Positions 6,572 through 13,993 of a DNA stretch of 21,418 bases are shown here, one piece after another. Every line of letters begins with the position of its first letter. The stretch's first letter is position 1. The position numbers and the translations under genes were made by a program. The notes under the pieces were generated by a model. It was given only the letters and a program-made list of their open reading frames with translations. It was not told where the DNA came from and did not search any database. This stretch comes from a virus, in IMG/VR virus record IMGVR_UViG_3300032113_000002, positions 1 to 21,418 of that record; one strand, written 5' to 3'.

Positions 6572-7527
6572 TAACCCCCCTCTCCAAACCAGTTATAATC
6601 AGCCACCCGTAATCCGTTTGAGGCTTTGATGGCTAGTGCTTTTGTTGTCCATAAGTTAGTATGGGTAGACCCTTGGTGCTGTACACTAAGTACGCAGTAT
6701 CTTGAGTACCCTGATACCATAGACTGCAAGTAGTCCTTAGATATAGTCAGTAATTCAAACCCGTCTTCTGTAGTAGCTGTTACTAGGTTTGATGTATCTA
6801 ATAGTGTATTACCTTCTATGCGTAGGTCAAGGTTTGACTCTATTTGTAATTGAGCTGCACCTATAACAGGGTTAGCTCTCATGTTGCTTGTGTCTAGCAA
6901 GACAGTCTCCCTAGAGCCTTGCCCACCTAGATGTGCATTCCGTCCTTGTGGTAAGTGACATACCTCTATTGTATTCCCCTTAATATGGGCTGTACAATTA
7001 TACTGCTTTGATAACTTCTTTAGGAAGTCCTGCATACTACCCGTAAATACCAGCTCCCCTCTAGGTGGTACATAGTTCTCTAGCTCGGGTGGGAAGTCTT
7101 TGTTTATGAACTCCACACCACCTAACTTCACCCTACTCAACTCCTGTTGTATATTCTTCAGAGAGGGCTTAAGTACTTGCAAGTTAATCTCCTTGCTAGT
7201 AAAGTCCCTTCTTAGTGAGTCAATACAGTACAGTGATGTTATAGTGTTAGGAACTTTCTTCTCAGTTACTAGGTTGTTAATGTACATCTGATCTATCAGC
7301 ACCTCAGTAGTGCCCCCATGCAGGGACACCTCCAAAGTTACGTGCTTATCTCCAGCACTAAGCTGGCTTATAGTTTCTGGTGCTAGGTTAAATATATCGA
7401 ACTTAGCACGGTTGAAGCCTTGCAGCATACGTACATCGAAGTCTACTCTAAGGCCTGATGTATTTAGCATCAGTACACCTTTCTCATATATCTTCAACAC
7501 CACGGTCTTTCCAAACTTTGTTATCAT
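6571..7527 (-). CDS. Baseplate hub protein (gp27/gpD-like)
   Basis: This 318-aa protein lies directly after the tape-measure gene with an ATGA overlap. Position and pattern fit the baseplate hub family: an N-terminal beta domain (LRVDFDVRMLQGFNRAKFDI at about 26-45, NLAPET, then SAGD..VTLEVS), a YCIDSLRRDF segment at about 101-110, a helical FLKKLSKQYNC element at about 168-178 and a beta-rich C-terminus. In relatives the hub forms a trimer that joins tube to spike. No lysozyme domain is visible. Confidence 0.78.
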   Translation of the reverse strand: MITKFGKTVVLKIYEKGVLMLNTSGLRVDFDVRMLQGFNRAKFDIFNLAPETISQLSAGDKHVTLEVSLHGGTTEVLIDQMYINNLVTEKKVPNTITSLYCIDSLRRDFTSKEINLQVLKPSLKNIQQELSRVKLGGVEFINKDFPPELENYVPPRGELVFTGSMQDFLKKLSKQYNCTAHIKGNTIEVCHLPQGRNAHLGGQGSRETVLLDTSNMRANPVIGAAQLQIESNLDLRIEGNTLLDTSNLVTATTEDGFELLTISKDYLQSMVSGYSRYCVLSVQHQGSTHTNLWTTKALAIKASNGLRVADYNWFGEGG

Positions 7528-10500
7528 CTGGAATCCCCATATGCTGTTACATTAGTGTCACTAGAGAAGTTATCTACTGTAGTTTTGGTGATAGCTACAT
7601 CTTCCCCTAGGCTTACTGATACTTCTACATTAGTTGCTTTAGACTCTATATCAATATCTTTAGGCTTAGGTAAACTCACATTCCCTACATCACTTGAAGG
7701 CATAAATCTAACTTCTCCAACACCTGTATCAGATGAAGGTGTAAATCTAGTACCACCGTTTAATAACTCACTTGACGGTATGTATCTAGTACCACCATCA
7801 CCTACCATAGGTTTACCGTCAGGGGTCTTTTGGCTATCAAACTTCATGCTATCCCCACTTAGGAATGCCTCACCTTGTAGCATGACTGCTGCTGTAATGC
7901 CACCTGTTAGTATAGATCCTGATGCTACTCCTGCTACCCCAGACCCTAAAGCTACTCTACTGGCTGTTAATGCACCCCTCCCTGCTGTTGCTGTGTCTCC
8001 TAAAGTAAATAGTCTAGCAGCACCGGCTAACACACCACCAAATCCTGCTGCTACGTAGTTACCTGTCTCACCTATAAAGTTAGTCCCTGTTTCCTTAACC
8101 CTCTCTATCATGTGCTCAGCACTGGATATTCCCTTGTAGCCAGCTCTTGCCTGCTCTTCGTGAACAGTCATACTAGCACTTTGTACTTGGTCTGGAGTAA
8201 CTTCCCCTACAGCAGTTGCCAACTTCTTGTACTGTGGGTCGAAAGCACTTAGTACTGCTGCTCTTTGTTTAGGGTCTTCGTACTTACCAGCCTCTTTCAA
8301 CATACGAGCCATTAAGTCACTACCTGACATAGCCTTAGTAGATTGATAGTCCCCTAAGTTAATAGCAGACATACCCTCGTTATTCCTTAGGGCTAGTAGT
8401 CTCTTTTGCATCCCCGTATACATAGGGACACCTGTAGTCTCTGACTGCATATTTGATGCAAAGTTACCTGTGGCTTGTACCATACTTAGTGCGTCTTGGT
8501 CTGTCATACCACCCTGCTCAGATAGTAAGTATCTAGCACCTCGGGTTTTATCTCCACCCCATCCTGATTCTGCACCTACTCGTATATCTGTAAGTTCAGT
8601 TCCAGCACCTTCTTTGAGTAAGCCGGCTGCACCACCTACAAACTTAGACATAGTTTTGGCGAACCTCATAGTAGCCTGTGTAGCTTCCTGTGATGCCTTC
8701 TTCTGCTTATCCAGCATATTGGTTTGTTCATCAGCCTGTTGTTTAGCCATGGCCAACTTCTTTTTAGCTATGTCTTCATCTAACTTATGTAGCTTATTTC
8801 GTATATCCTGCTCATTCTTGAACCTCTTCTTGTTAGAGGCCATCTCAGCCAAGTCTTGTGACTTCCTGTCCTTATCTTTTGTTCTGGCCGCAGTCTCAGT
8901 AACGTCCATTATCTTAGCAGATAGTGCCTGAGATCTTTTGAACCTAGCAGTAGCATCAGTTGCTTCTTTTCTTTGTGCGGCTTTTTCGCTCTTCTCGGAC
9001 TCAACAAATGATCTCCTCCTTCCTTCCTGAATTGGGCCAGTAAATACTGTTGCTTCAGGTTCAGGCATTGGGCCATTAAATACTGTTGCCCCTAAATCTA
9101 TTGCAGCTTCATCAAGAACCCCTGATGTACCACCTCTTAATATTTCCATACCCTCTCCTGCAAGTTCTATTGATTTATACCCTGCCTCAATTATTCGTTT
9201 CTGTAACGCTGGGTCAGCTTTTACTACATCGTACTCAGCCTTTCTAGTCTGTCTGTTTATCCTGTAGAAGTGTACTTGATCTTCTCCAGTTATAGCCATT
9301 TGGAATTGTAGTTGGTTCATGTAAGTAGACAAAGACTTCTTCATAGCAGCCTCAGTCTTATGTACCTTAAACTCAACTAACCCATGCGACTTACCTGCCT
9401 CATCAAATACCCTACCATCTGGTGATACACCCATCCCTTCGTAGTTAGGGTTCTCTTCAAAGTACGCGTCCTCTACTGTTAGTCCGGTGCCTTCCTTTTT
9501 AGACATGCTCTCGAAAGATTTTCTGGCTAAGTCTTCGTACTCTTGACCTTCTACGATGTCTGCGTTACTGACAAAAGGTTGTGGGTCTATTAAGTTCTGT
9601 GCAGCCATGATCTGTCCTTCCTTAGATAGGAATTTTTTAGACTTACCATCCCTCGCTACTGTCCCTGTTAATGACGCTGATAACTTACCTTTTCTCTGAT
9701 CTTTCCAGCCTTCTGTCCCTTGCTCAAATAGAGTCCCTTCAGATAGCCTTTGCTCAGTATAAGCTAAGTAAGCCTCTCTATCGGAGTTGTACTCTTTAGG
9801 TCTTGGGTCTGCTGGCCCTACAAAGGTATCTACGTAATCTTTATTTAACAGCCTGAGGTTGTTGTCCTCATACAAATACTTATTACTGGCATATGGTTCC
9901 TCTATAACCTTATCTGGGTCGTATACTTCATACCCCTGTGACCTTAGTGACTGGTACGTGTCTGAGTCACTCATACCCTCACTACTGTACTTACCGCCTT
10001 GGTCAGATCCATATACTGTAGCTCCTGCCCTATAATCACCTTTGGTGTTTGTAGATAAATCAGCAGCCACTGTATCTCTCTTCTCATAGCTTAGGTCAAG
10101 TAACTGAGCCTCGTGTATGAAGTCGGATTGGTCTCTTTGTTCATCTGAGATTCCCAACCCTATTACGTGTTTGTAGTTCTGGTAGTTCTCGTCAGAGGTG
10201 TTGAGCATGAGCTTTTGTAGTATGCCTCTTGCCTTCTTAGAGTCAGACACTACCTCATCGTATTCGTTTCTAGCGTCCCTTCTTCTCGTTGTCTTCAAGT
10301 CCTTAATCTGGTTATCAGATAGGGCTCTCTTCTCACCCTTAGAGATCTTCTTAGGTTGTATTAATCCACTGATGTGGGGTTGCATTGCCCCTCTTTGTTC
10401 TGGTGTGAACTTATCCCACTCAGGGCTGTTAGCAAACGCATCGTACTGAGCTCTTGTAAAAGGACTTCCTTGATGCCCTTGCCAAGATGGTGTGCTAGTT

Positions 10501-11369
10501 AAACCGAAAATACCCAACTCATTGGGTAATGGTAGTATAGTACTTGCATATATTAAATCTCCTTTGCGCAAGCCTTCTTTGTATACAGCGTGCTCTCCTG
10601 TCTCTAGGTCGTAAACCTTGGCTGCTGGTCGGTGTTCATTAACCCAGTAGTCTATAATAGCATCTGTTGTGGATGACACACGCTCACCGTATAGGTCTGG
10701 TGCCATCTCCTTCGTCCCTGCCATCTGGTACTTACCGGCTAACTTCTTAGCAAACCCTATTGCCCAATCAATCTCATCCTTAGACTCAGCATCCTTCTCA
10801 GGGCTTAAGTGTTGGCCTATCATTGTACCACCAGGCCCTTGCTTTAGGAAAGCCTCAGCAGTTGTACCCATCATACTCAGAACCATGTTCTGTTCCATCT
10901 TGCTGGCGGTAGGGGACACTGATTCATCAAAGGTGAAGTGTTTTGCCCAGTACCTACTATCTCTTCCTATGGTTTTCTCAAAGGATGATTTTGCTAGGTT
11001 GACAGCATCAACAGCCTCTGCCCCACCTATACGTCTGGCCGCTGCTACTGGGTCGTTAGCAACCAAAGCTGCGAAGGCTTGTACTCTAGGCTCCATCTGG
11101 TCGAACCTTTGTTCCATGAACCCTACGGTAGACATACCATCTAACTCGCTTACTGACTCTGACTCAGTACTAGACTCTGGCTTTACAGATTCTTTGGCTT
11201 CATCTTCTGCTTTCTGTACTTCCTTGAGCCATAGGTCTGCTGCATCCCCTTCTGCGTCATCTTTGTAATCATCTTGTGCGTCTTCCCATTTATTGGGATC
11301 TACGTCAAAGTCCCCAAAGTCTGGTATGTCAGAGTCTAGTACTGAGTCCGAGCCATAATCGTCATCCAT
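7524..11369 (-). CDS. Tape-measure-position protein with embedded lambda-exonuclease-like nuclease
   Basis: This 1281-aa protein is the longest ORF, lying between the frameshifted tail chaperone and the hub, which is the tape-measure slot. Order: an acidic N-terminus (1-75); a 470-residue soluble region without clear homology; a PD-(D/E)XK nuclease (about 547-743) with W555-x3-R559 then SAS, E612 in EGQEYED, D651 in SPDG, E666-F-K668 and YMNQLQF (683-689), all aligning in order with lambda exonuclease/YqaJ motifs; a charged coiled coil (about 790-915); a Gly/Ala-rich hydrophobic segment (about 1104-1172); and three 13-residue repeats (1192-1230). The start has AGGAGG-CTTTAA-ATG. Tape measures set tail length and are often ejected with DNA. 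The nuclease fold is read from motifs; the tape-measure role is inferred from location, coiled coil and hydrophobic segment. I know of no standard tape measure with this domain. Confidence 0.85.
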   Translation of the reverse strand: MDDDYGSDSVLDSDIPDFGDFDVDPNKWEDAQDDYKDDAEGDAADLWLKEVQKAEDEAKESVKPESSTESESVSELDGMSTVGFMEQRFDQMEPRVQAFAALVANDPVAAARRIGGAEAVDAVNLAKSSFEKTIGRDSRYWAKHFTFDESVSPTASKMEQNMVLSMMGTTAEAFLKQGPGGTMIGQHLSPEKDAESKDEIDWAIGFAKKLAGKYQMAGTKEMAPDLYGERVSSTTDAIIDYWVNEHRPAAKVYDLETGEHAVYKEGLRKGDLIYASTILPLPNELGIFGLTSTPSWQGHQGSPFTRAQYDAFANSPEWDKFTPEQRGAMQPHISGLIQPKKISKGEKRALSDNQIKDLKTTRRRDARNEYDEVVSDSKKARGILQKLMLNTSDENYQNYKHVIGLGISDEQRDQSDFIHEAQLLDLSYEKRDTVAADLSTNTKGDYRAGATVYGSDQGGKYSSEGMSDSDTYQSLRSQGYEVYDPDKVIEEPYASNKYLYEDNNLRLLNKDYVDTFVGPADPRPKEYNSDREAYLAYTEQRLSEGTLFEQGTEGWKDQRKGKLSASLTGTVARDGKSKKFLSKEGQIMAAQNLIDPQPFVSNADIVEGQEYEDLARKSFESMSKKEGTGLTVEDAYFEENPNYEGMGVSPDGRVFDEAGKSHGLVEFKVHKTEAAMKKSLSTYMNQLQFQMAITGEDQVHFYRINRQTRKAEYDVVKADPALQKRIIEAGYKSIELAGEGMEILRGGTSGVLDEAAIDLGATVFNGPMPEPEATVFTGPIQEGRRRSFVESEKSEKAAQRKEATDATARFKRSQALSAKIMDVTETAARTKDKDRKSQDLAEMASNKKRFKNEQDIRNKLHKLDEDIAKKKLAMAKQQADEQTNMLDKQKKASQEATQATMRFAKTMSKFVGGAAGLLKEGAGTELTDIRVGAESGWGGDKTRGARYLLSEQGGMTDQDALSMVQATGNFASNMQSETTGVPMYTGMQKRLLALRNNEGMSAINLGDYQSTKAMSGSDLMARMLKEAGKYEDPKQRAAVLSAFDPQYKKLATAVGEVTPDQVQSASMTVHEEQARAGYKGISSAEHMIERVKETGTNFIGETGNYVAAGFGGVLAGAARLFTLGDTATAGRGALTASRVALGSGVAGVASGSILTGGITAAVMLQGEAFLSGDSMKFDSQKTPDGKPMVGDGGTRYIPSSELLNGGTRFTPSSDTGVGEVRFMPSSDVGNVSLPKPKDIDIESKATNVEVSVSLGEDVAITKTTVDNFSSDTNVTAYGDSR

Positions 11370-11382
11370 TTAAAGCCTCCTG

Positions 11383-11628
11383 TTATTCAGAGGCTCTATT
11401 AATGTGCTCTCTGATTTCTAATATTTGATTTAGCTTTTCTAAATCCTGTATGTTGTACGTGCCGTCTTGTAACTCAGCTAATGTACATAGTGGTGGTTTT
11501 GCTATCACTGGTCTAATCAAGAACCCATTAATCTCTGGGAAGATCTTGTTGTAGTCCATAGGGATAGCAGCAGAGGAATCCCCATCACTTAGCTGTCTTG
11601 GGAGGTCTCCTTTGCTAAACCTAACTCG
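11383..11628 (-). CDS. Frameshifted C-terminal extension of the tail assembly chaperone (GT-like)
   Basis: This reading frame is reached by a -1 shift from the upstream chaperone gene. After the slip it encodes 81 residues, starting RVRFSKGDLPRQL, passing through MDYNKIFPEINGFLIRP and ending INRASE, with TAA at 11385-11383. The frame is open without a stop from before the slippery site to its end. It would give a 196-aa fusion (115 + 81). From its first internal ATG it is only 58 aa and has no convincing ribosome site, so it is easily missed. It ends 13 nt before the tape-measure ATG, as lambda G-T and other phages arrange it. Confidence 0.85.
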   Translation of the reverse strand, partial: RVRFSKGDLPRQLSDGDSSAAIPMDYNKIFPEINGFLIRPVIAKPPLCTLAELQDGTYNIQDLEKLNQILEIREHINRASE

Positions 11629-11972
11629 AAAAAACTTAGGTACTGACTCTTGATTACGTGGGCGAAGATCTCTGCTATTTTAAACAAAGACCCTTCAAAC
11701 ATTGAATCAAAACCAGCATCTGTAATTCTGCTGCCGTCTACTCTAGCTGTGCACACGAAGTGCTTTATAAGCAATGTGGTTTCTTTTGGTGTACTTGATT
11801 CTAGGATAGCCCGTATCACAGCAGGGCAGCTGAGTGTTGATATATCTAATAAGTTATCTGTGCCAATGAACTCACCAGCTTTGGTTAAGTTCTCTAGTGC
11901 TACACTAGCCGGCCAAGTTGGTATGTATAACTCTGATCCATCCTTTAGTACTTCTTTGTATAATTCTGCCAT
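11589..11972 (-). CDS. Tail assembly chaperone (G-like product)
   Basis: This 127-aa protein lies between tail tube and tape measure. The frame is open to a TTG at 11999, but ATG 11972 (MAELYKEVLKDGSELYIPTW) has AAGGAG four bases upstream and is the better start. The sequence is mostly helical with no recognised catalytic motif. Position and the -1 slippery heptamer near its 3' end identify it as the short product of the tail chaperone pair, which binds the tape measure and recruits tube subunits during tail assembly. Twelve residues are translated after the slippery site when no shift occurs. Confidence 0.85.
   Translation of the reverse strand: MAELYKEVLKDGSELYIPTWPASVALENLTKAGEFIGTDNLLDISTLSCPAVIRAILESSTPKETTLLIKHFVCTARVDGSRITDAGFDSMFEGSLFKIAEIFAHVIKSQYLSFFELGLAKETSQDS
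11628..11634 (-). promoter_or_regulatory. Programmed -1 ribosomal frameshift slippery site
   Basis: The minus-strand heptamer T TTT TTC lies in frame as AGT-TTT-TTC (0-frame codons for S-F-F at residues 113-115). It matches the X XXY YYZ pattern. A slip of one base leads straight into the open frame that ends just before the tape-measure gene. No strong downstream pseudoknot was found by eye; a short GGAG/CTCC element 16 nt downstream is too tight to be convincing. Confidence 0.85.
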
Positions 11973-11976
11973 AGTT

Positions 11977-11982
11977 CTCCTT
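11977..11982 (-). promoter_or_regulatory. Ribosome binding site fixing the tail chaperone start
   Basis: AAGGAG on the minus strand, 4 nt before ATG 11972. The in-frame TTG at 11999 has no such site and lies within a stem-loop, so this ATG is preferred. Confidence 0.75.
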
Positions 11983-12030: not shown

Positions 12031-12531
12031 TTAGATTACGTTCAAGCCTACTTCGTCAACATCAGCACCGATCTCACGGTCGATCAGGACTTTCTCAAAA
12101 GTAATAACCCATGTTACAGTGTTCATAGTCTGTCCACGAACAACTGCTGGCATAGCCAAGATGACACCATTCTGCATCATAACCTCATCTTTACCCATGT
12201 TATCAACTAGCTTAGCTTGAATAGGGATAATTGGTTTAGCATTACCTTGTGCTTGATTCTGGAAATGGTTGGCCCAATCCTGTAAAGCTTTGTTTTCAGG
12301 TGAGTTCATTAGTACACTAAATACTAAATCACCAGCTCTGATACGCTGCATGTTTACTACCATGTCACCATACGCCCCGAAGGTTGTAGATGCGATAGGT
12401 GTTTTTCTTGTGATGCTGATTAATTGCTCACCGGCTACGTAGCCTGATACTGTGAACTTTCCATCTCCTACAATGCCTTCGTAGGCTGCTGAAATGATTA
12501 AGTCAACATTTGCAAATGAGTACTGGTACAT
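12031..12531 (-). CDS. Tail tube protein (DUF3277-like)
   Basis: This 166-aa protein follows the sheath. The N-terminus (MYQYSFANVDLII then GFGDG-like VGDGKFTVSGY) and the middle part (TTFGAYGDMVVNMQRIRAGDLVFSV, positions about 49-73) match the pattern of DUF3277-type tail tube proteins of myoviruses with DUF3383 sheaths. The length is slightly above the family's usual. It should form stacked hexameric rings through which DNA and the tape measure pass. AAAAGGAATAAATA-ATG gives a good start. Confidence 0.83.
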   Translation of the reverse strand: MYQYSFANVDLIISAAYEGIVGDGKFTVSGYVAGEQLISITRKTPIASTTFGAYGDMVVNMQRIRAGDLVFSVLMNSPENKALQDWANHFQNQAQGNAKPIIPIQAKLVDNMGKDEVMMQNGVILAMPAVVRGQTMNTVTWVITFEKVLIDREIGADVDEVGLNVI

Positions 12532-12553: not shown

Positions 12554-13993
12554 TTATTCTGAGAACTCGCCAGCTACAAATACTTTATGTAAAGCACCTG
12601 CACCGACAGCCTTGAAAGATAAGCCTTGGTAAACTCTACCTGTCTTATCACTTGCCGCTACGTTCTCTAAAGCAACTGCTGTAACTACGTAACCATTAGG
12701 CAAGAATGTGCCGTCAGGCAAGAAACCCGCTGCTAGGAACCCATTACGTACACCTGCATCTAAAGACTGCTCTAAGGTATCCTTAGTGACGTTGATACCT
12801 GTCTGTGTGAAAGGGATCTTAGTATTTGATGTGTACAGTAAGTTAAACATATCTTTCTCAATACGATCTTCTAACCATAGTAAACCATGAGTAGTATCTA
12901 ACCAAGAGCCTGATGCTGTTGCGCTATCTACAAACACATTAGCTATGCCATTAACTATCACAAGCACATTACAGTTCTTGCCTTGTAATGCAGCTAGCTC
13001 ACCAGAGGTTAAGTTCTCTACAGTTATAGTAGGTAACTGCTTAAGGTTCATAGTAATAGTGGTGCCGATACCTTCAAAGTTCACACTAGCAATACGTCCA
13101 AATACAGAAGCACTTGGGTACTGGTTTGCGTTCTTAGCAAATACTGTGTGGCTGTATCTAAGTGTCATAGCCTTTAACTGAGAAGCTACGTCTGTTGCAA
13201 TAGCTGTAGATAAAGTGCTTAAGTCATTAGTGGTATTCATGAAGATGACTTTAGAAGCTTCTGCCCATGCTGCTAGGTCTGTTGTGTTCTCGCCTACTGC
13301 TTGTGCAGTTGAATCTCTGTACATCTTATGTGTTACTAAAGCTGTGAAGGCTGTGCCTGCATTTTTAGCTACGTTTAATGCAGTGATAGGTGTCTCTGCA
13401 TCAATACCTTGTGCAATTAATGCTTGATGTTGTGCAAAGCCTAAGTCTTCTGCTGATGTGCCTGTGCCAAAAGAGATTGTGCTGCCCACGCCTGCTGTGC
13501 TTGAAGTAATTAAGAAGCTTGTGCCATTGTGTGTACACACAGCCGTTGACAAACCAGCTAGTAACTGTGCTGTGATCTCTGCTGCTACTTCATCATAGGT
13601 AGTAGTAGCTGTTAGGTTCAATGTAATAACCTCAGCCGTACCATCAATAGTGATTGTTAAGTCACCTGCTGTAATAGCAGACAAACCTGCCACGTCCAAA
13701 GAACCACCGCCTAGTAATACTGCTGATTGTGCTGCATCATACACAGAGATTACTGTGAAGTCTACTGGTGTAGGTGTTTGTGCGTAGTACGCTGTAGCGG
13801 CTTTATAAACTTCAGTTGTTACTGCCCAGTCTACGGATACTTCTACTAAGCTTTTATAAGCCCGTGATCTTTCAGGTACTAAAATACCTGCTTCGTTTGT
13901 AAGGAAGCCTAGGATACCAAAGTTACCTAAAGCTAATCCTGCGGGAGATACAGAAATATCAGCCTTTACAAATTCATTAATGTTAATACTCAT
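12554..13993 (-). CDS. Tail sheath protein (DUF3383-like)
   Basis: This 479-aa contractile sheath subunit confirms a myovirus. The N-terminus (ININEFVKADISVSP....LGNFGILGFLT) and the C-terminal part (near residue 380, LLWLEDRIEKDMFNLLYTS, and NGYVVTA) match the DUF3383 family, whose members include the sheath of several proteobacterial phages. Residues about 100-200 are Thr/Ser/Ala-rich beta, the likely surface insertion. It is paired with the tube gene downstream (22 bp gap). The start has an AAAGGAAAATAA-ATG site. Confidence 0.88.
   Translation of the reverse strand: MSININEFVKADISVSPAGLALGNFGILGFLTNEAGILVPERSRAYKSLVEVSVDWAVTTEVYKAATAYYAQTPTPVDFTVISVYDAAQSAVLLGGGSLDVAGLSAITAGDLTITIDGTAEVITLNLTATTTYDEVAAEITAQLLAGLSTAVCTHNGTSFLITSSTAGVGSTISFGTGTSAEDLGFAQHQALIAQGIDAETPITALNVAKNAGTAFTALVTHKMYRDSTAQAVGENTTDLAAWAEASKVIFMNTTNDLSTLSTAIATDVASQLKAMTLRYSHTVFAKNANQYPSASVFGRIASVNFEGIGTTITMNLKQLPTITVENLTSGELAALQGKNCNVLVIVNGIANVFVDSATASGSWLDTTHGLLWLEDRIEKDMFNLLYTSNTKIPFTQTGINVTKDTLEQSLDAGVRNGFLAAGFLPDGTFLPNGYVVTAVALENVAASDKTGRVYQGLSFKAVGAGALHKVFVAGEFSE

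Follow-up and report, generated by a model that had tools for sequence, protein, structure and literature searches.

A conserved slippery heptamer and a predicted -1 frameshift fusion at the tail assembly chaperone locus of a Chaseviridae-like phage

In a phage genome fragment, an open frame lies between the end of a short tail assembly chaperone gene and the gene occupying the tape-measure position, and this raises the question by which route it could be translated. The window, i.e. the whole stretch of DNA analysed here, is a single virus record of 21,418 bases and represents a fragment. Its tail sheath gene (12554..13993, on the minus strand like all features described below; PHROG 205, tail sheath, E 5.7e-93) has its best match among the named phages listed in a member of the Chaseviridae, Vibrio phage VPs20 (41.6%). 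For the family comparison, 19 records were fetched of the 60 listed, which came from 1448 sheath-matching records, and the order of the structural genes in the window is that of the fetched Chaseviridae records. Judged by sequence, the window phage is a Chaseviridae-like myophage with a predicted contractile tail. According to the abstract of the Myduc report, Chaseviridae have genomes of approximately 52-56 kb and a T7-like RNA polymerase of their own. Closer to the window than the named phages are IMG/VR contigs, whose chaperones are 37-54% identical to that of the window and whose tails (the -1 frame extension described below) are about 47-57% identical.

The short chaperone (TAC-N) is encoded directly between a tail tube candidate and a gene located in the tape-measure position. 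The former (12031..12531, minus strand), located upstream of the chaperone gene, matches Pfam KPP10_Orf10 (E 3.2e-9) and PHROG 280 (virion structural), and its homologues carry the name tail tube in some records. The latter (7524..11369, minus strand) encodes 1281 aa with a Pfam match to a YqaJ nuclease domain. The chaperone ORF extends from an ATG at 11972 to a stop at 11589 (11589..11972, minus strand; 127 aa plus stop) and matches PHROG 11820 (E 1.2e-16) and, above the cut-off, Pfam Phage_TAC_15 (E 5.4e-9). Reading of the sequence revealed a ribosome binding site, AAGGAG, at 11977..11982 (minus strand).

The initial annotation had proposed that a heptamer T TTT TTC located in frame 12 codons before the chaperone stop serves for a programmed -1 frameshift. 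Indeed, the heptamer is found in phase at 11634..11628 (minus strand). The -1 frame is open from stop to stop between 11679 and 11383, and from the heptamer onward it comprises 81 codons plus stop (TAC-C; 11383..11628, minus strand; PHROG 4364, E 6e-12). It contains no stop, while the other two frames contain 8 and 9 stops over the same ORF. The stretch 11589..11627 (minus strand) is read in both frames, since it also holds the last 12 zero-frame codons and the chaperone stop, and it shows a lowered synonymous difference. The stop of the -1 frame (11385..11383) is separated by 13 nt from the tape-measure ATG (11369), and this gap contains the GGAGG (11376..11380, minus strand) which, from reading of the sequence, is the ribosome binding site of the tape-measure-position gene. 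Thus, both the extent of the open -1 frame and its distance to the next gene agree with the proposal. Translation across the heptamer yields, as predicted, a fusion of 115 + 81 = 196 aa with the junction SQYLSFF-R. The expectation that the second ORF is short from its own ATG was also borne out, since translation from the earliest ATG of this frame would cover just 58 codons. Profile searches against solved structures gave no match for the short chaperone and one match at chance level for the tail. Structure models of the tail alone were poor (mean pLDDT 57 and 56), so that independent folding of the tail as a domain is not supported.

If the heptamer is used, related phages should keep it, and this check, named in the initial annotation, was run on two sets of loci. 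The first set consisted of 19 phage records, seven IMG/VR loci and the window (27 loci). The heptamer was in phase in all 27, as TTTTTTC in 26 and as GTTTTTC in one (phage Faunus), and every locus of the set has its tail in the -1 frame, with the sequences of two loci (L003 and L005) ending within the tail. The second set of 54 loci was gathered by the tail peptide alone, blind to the heptamer. Here, N-TTTTT-C/T was in phase in 48 loci and absent from five, and one locus (L082) was cut before the site. Four additional phage records (L028-L031) also have the heptamer in phase. In total, N-TTTTT-C/T is in phase in 79 of the 85 loci (window included), with five loci lacking it and one cut off; since the loci are related, these counts do not represent independent events. 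The second set comprises in part the same phages as the first, and this overlap was removed by clustering: at 95% nucleotide identity, the 79 positive loci form 51 clusters, 49 with TTTTTTC, one with GTTTTTC and one with TTTTTTT. T TTT TTC is found at the Phe-Phe pair of the site in 26 of the 27 loci of the first set, but at none of 84 Phe-Phe pairs elsewhere in these loci (ORFs of at least 150 aa, chaperone genes excluded). Conservation of the heptamer in the relatives is far beyond chance. In one of the clusters, Pel53 (L025, PP952070.1), a phage named for Staphylococcus hyicus, groups at 95% identity of its chaperone locus with coliphages; its host label looks doubtful.

The second frame is conserved too. 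No -1 frame stops were found in related phages, and the tail occupies the -1 frame at every locus where it could be judged. This includes the five loci that lack the T run (L060, L061, L067, L069 and L071), all of which are distant. Two of these, L067 and L069, are identical in sequence around the site and harbour GGGTTTT there in phase, and L071 has AAATTTG in phase at the corresponding position; both heptamers are canonical. In L060 (152-376) and L061 (2796-3020) a canonical in-phase heptamer was looked for and none was found; their tails are still in the -1 frame. Related tails, detected with queries from L012 and L021, match 102 phage records, among which the heptamer check covers the fetched ones.

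Next to conservation of the motif, the pattern of substitutions bears on translation of the tail. A comparison of 25 representatives from the clade to which the window belongs gave, for the chaperone frame, a synonymous difference of approximately 0.76 in the 39 codons preceding the site. The value drops to 0 at the pair of slip codons and is 0.26 in the 12 codons that follow; the lowest value for any upstream run of 12 codons is 0.61. The same step at the heptamer, smaller in size, was found in three other groups. Past the chaperone stop, the -1 frame of the tail has pN/pS values of 0.37, 0.22, 0.25 and 0.27 in four groups, compared to 0.94-1.05 and 1.76-2.82 for the same bases in the other two frames. 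Thus, the tail is under constraint at the protein level, and in the -1 frame only. Coding constraint is present from the heptamer onward, and therefore the tail is a protein whose translation most probably enters at the heptamer. In line with the initial proposal, the conservation and the constraint which switches on at the heptamer at the level of codons support the reading that a programmed -1 frameshift yields the long chaperone form, for which we estimate a probability of about 95%. That the feature is real and functional has, on this comparative evidence, a very high likelihood.

Several other explanations of the locus have to be weighed. The tail could be a separate small gene, translated from its own start codon or by reinitiation past the chaperone stop. 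In support of this, fragments of the -1 frame are annotated as separate genes in SppYZU05 (gp10), PP101 (gp66), BUCT696 (gp53) and PM1 (PM1_050), Myduc gp50 is located at the same place, and 4 of 49 representatives have a start that is accompanied by a GGAG-like site and from which at least 45 codons could be read. However, an ATG, GTG or TTG leaving 50 codons is missing in 28 of the 49 complete tails, and for this reason independent translation of the tail is unlikely. Moreover, the tail of SSEM1 has no ATG, GTG or TTG start at all, that of the window has no start with a ribosome binding site, and the constraint sets in at the heptamer, which lies upstream of all starts of this kind. We therefore consider a separate gene highly improbable; an internal start as a general route to the tail was ruled out by the start-codon survey of the 49 tails. 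Alternatively, slippage of RNA polymerase on the T run could result in a share of frame-shifted transcripts, and nearly all loci indeed have a run of six T there. Yet six T are short for efficient polymerase slippage, and Faunus has just five (GTTTTTC). A seventh T would keep the Phe-Phe coding but was seen in only one of the 51 clusters, and distant relatives have GGGTTTT or AAATTTG in the correct codon phase instead. Together, these points fit slippage between codon and anticodon better than slippage of the polymerase, to which we give just as little credence as to the separate gene.

The homopolymer run and the origin of the window from a single virus record could also point to an indel, arisen by sequencing or assembly, which split one gene. 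Against this, the same split is found in many separate assemblies and in isolate genomes (79 of 85 loci), the isolate genomes NC_049466 and NC_023865 contradict it, and the zero-frame end belongs to the stretch of lowered synonymous change, leaving a negligible probability for an error of this kind. Finally, the -1 frame could be open by chance and unused. TTTTTTC occurs four times on both strands of the window, close to the 2.85 copies expected, and thus the motif by itself has no significance. The idea of an unused frame is nevertheless refuted by the conservation of the tail protein, with pN/pS of 0.22-0.37 in the -1 frame only, and by the tail homologues in 102 phage records; its probability is as negligible as that of the indel.

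Frameshifting can be helped by a stimulatory RNA structure downstream of the slippery site, which is not always present. Single folds downstream of the heptamer were mostly no better than shuffles, and the consensus fold of the alignment in this region was nearly empty. With a control preserving the -1 protein, the mean z was -0.68, and p values up to 0.05 were obtained in 2 of 25 cases. By eye, members of the window's clade repeatedly show a hairpin of the CUCCC...GGAG type around the stop codon of the zero frame (window, approximately 11610-11575 on the minus strand; L002, L004, L027, L054, L055 and others). This hairpin starts approximately 23 nt past the heptamer, some loci lack it, and it was not clearly above the control. 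Overall, no convincing stimulatory element emerged from these folds.

In the proposed frameshift, the majority of ribosomes would produce the 127-aa chaperone, while a fraction, with tRNA-Phe on TTT in the P site and on TTC in the A site, would slip back by one base and append the 81-aa tail, resulting in the 196-aa fusion. We infer that the slippage is ribosomal, and its rate likewise. By its gene arrangement and sequence features, the locus belongs to the textbook lambda G/GT class. The slippery site of lambda is G GGA AAG, unlike T TTT TTC here, and the lambda tail is non-contractile. The likeness lies in the existence of two chaperone forms, generated by a -1 shift immediately ahead of the tape-measure gene; for gpG and gpGT, the available part of PMC5009743 gives a model with coating of the tape measure and recruitment of tube subunits. 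By analogy, the short form may coat the tape-measure protein, the tail of the long form may recruit tube subunits, and both forms would leave before completion of the tail.

Closer counterparts exist among other phages. The Chaseviridae phages 4HA13, PM1, Faunus and VPs20 have orthologous chaperone genes in the same order and likewise a -1 tail. Felix O1 has an in-phase TTTTTTC 11 codons ahead of the stop, together with an open -1 frame, and in KPP10, G GTT TTT was read by eye at the matching place. For Felix O1-like phages, the accessible portions of the Moogle and Mijalis genome announcements mention a -1 frameshift in the tail chaperone. A conserved -1 chaperone frameshift with a GTTTTT motif is described for Vandenendeviridae, based on 56 alleles from 159 genomes, in the part of PMC12846349 (Adele) that is available, and there the motif is likewise given for 231 Andersonviridae phages. 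As far as these excerpts go, both families resemble the locus described here in gene position, in the combination of TAC-N with a -1 TAC-NC, in the T-rich slippery site close to where TAC-N ends and in the tail being often annotated as hypothetical, and they differ in that GTTTTT is named invariant there (PMC12846349), compared to TTTTTTC here. On Chaseviridae, the same available text deals with tail fibers and claims no chaperone frameshift. The 4HA13 genome paper contains no word beginning with "frame", and Chaseviridae are not mentioned in the portion of the PRFect paper that is accessible. In the literature searched, to which most subscription papers do not belong, no published report of a chaperone frameshift in Chaseviridae was found, and thus it seems to be unreported there.

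The suspicion that automatic annotation misses the second frame was well founded: a joined chaperone frame is present in none of the 19 fetched phage records, and the tail is either unannotated or annotated in fragments. With tails in 102 records, this would amount to an annotation correction for a whole phage family. Further, nature provides here a series of different slippery sites in an unchanged position, which could be used to study which heptamers support a set ratio of the two chaperones. It is tempting to speculate, with the chances in our opinion evenly balanced, that one ancestral frameshift signal was kept across several contractile-tailed families, namely Chaseviridae and their relatives, Felix O1-like phages and KPP10-like phages, in which phase and position are fixed while the heptamer (TTTTTTC, GTTTTTC, TTTTTTT, GGGTTTT, AAATTTG and GGTTTTT) and the amino acids at the site change, without the help of a conserved RNA structure.

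Some observations concern the neighbouring tape-measure-position gene (7524-11369, minus strand). The YqaJ-type nuclease domain of its product comprises residues 555-696 (Pfam E 2e-11) and contains a D...ExK-like stretch. A YqaJ match was detected in all six Chaseviridae tape-measure homologues tested, with that of L008 below the curated cut-off; three of the six also harbour an SLT transglycosylase domain, and a simple D...ExK-type motif pattern is present inside the YqaJ domain in three of the six. The nuclease domain may be injected together with the DNA. The annotation of Shewanella phage Spp001 (L022, 7793-11253) divides the tape-measure region into two ORFs of 2025 and 1272 bases, compared to one ORF of 3756 bases in its relative SppYZU05, which points to either a frame error or a genuine split.
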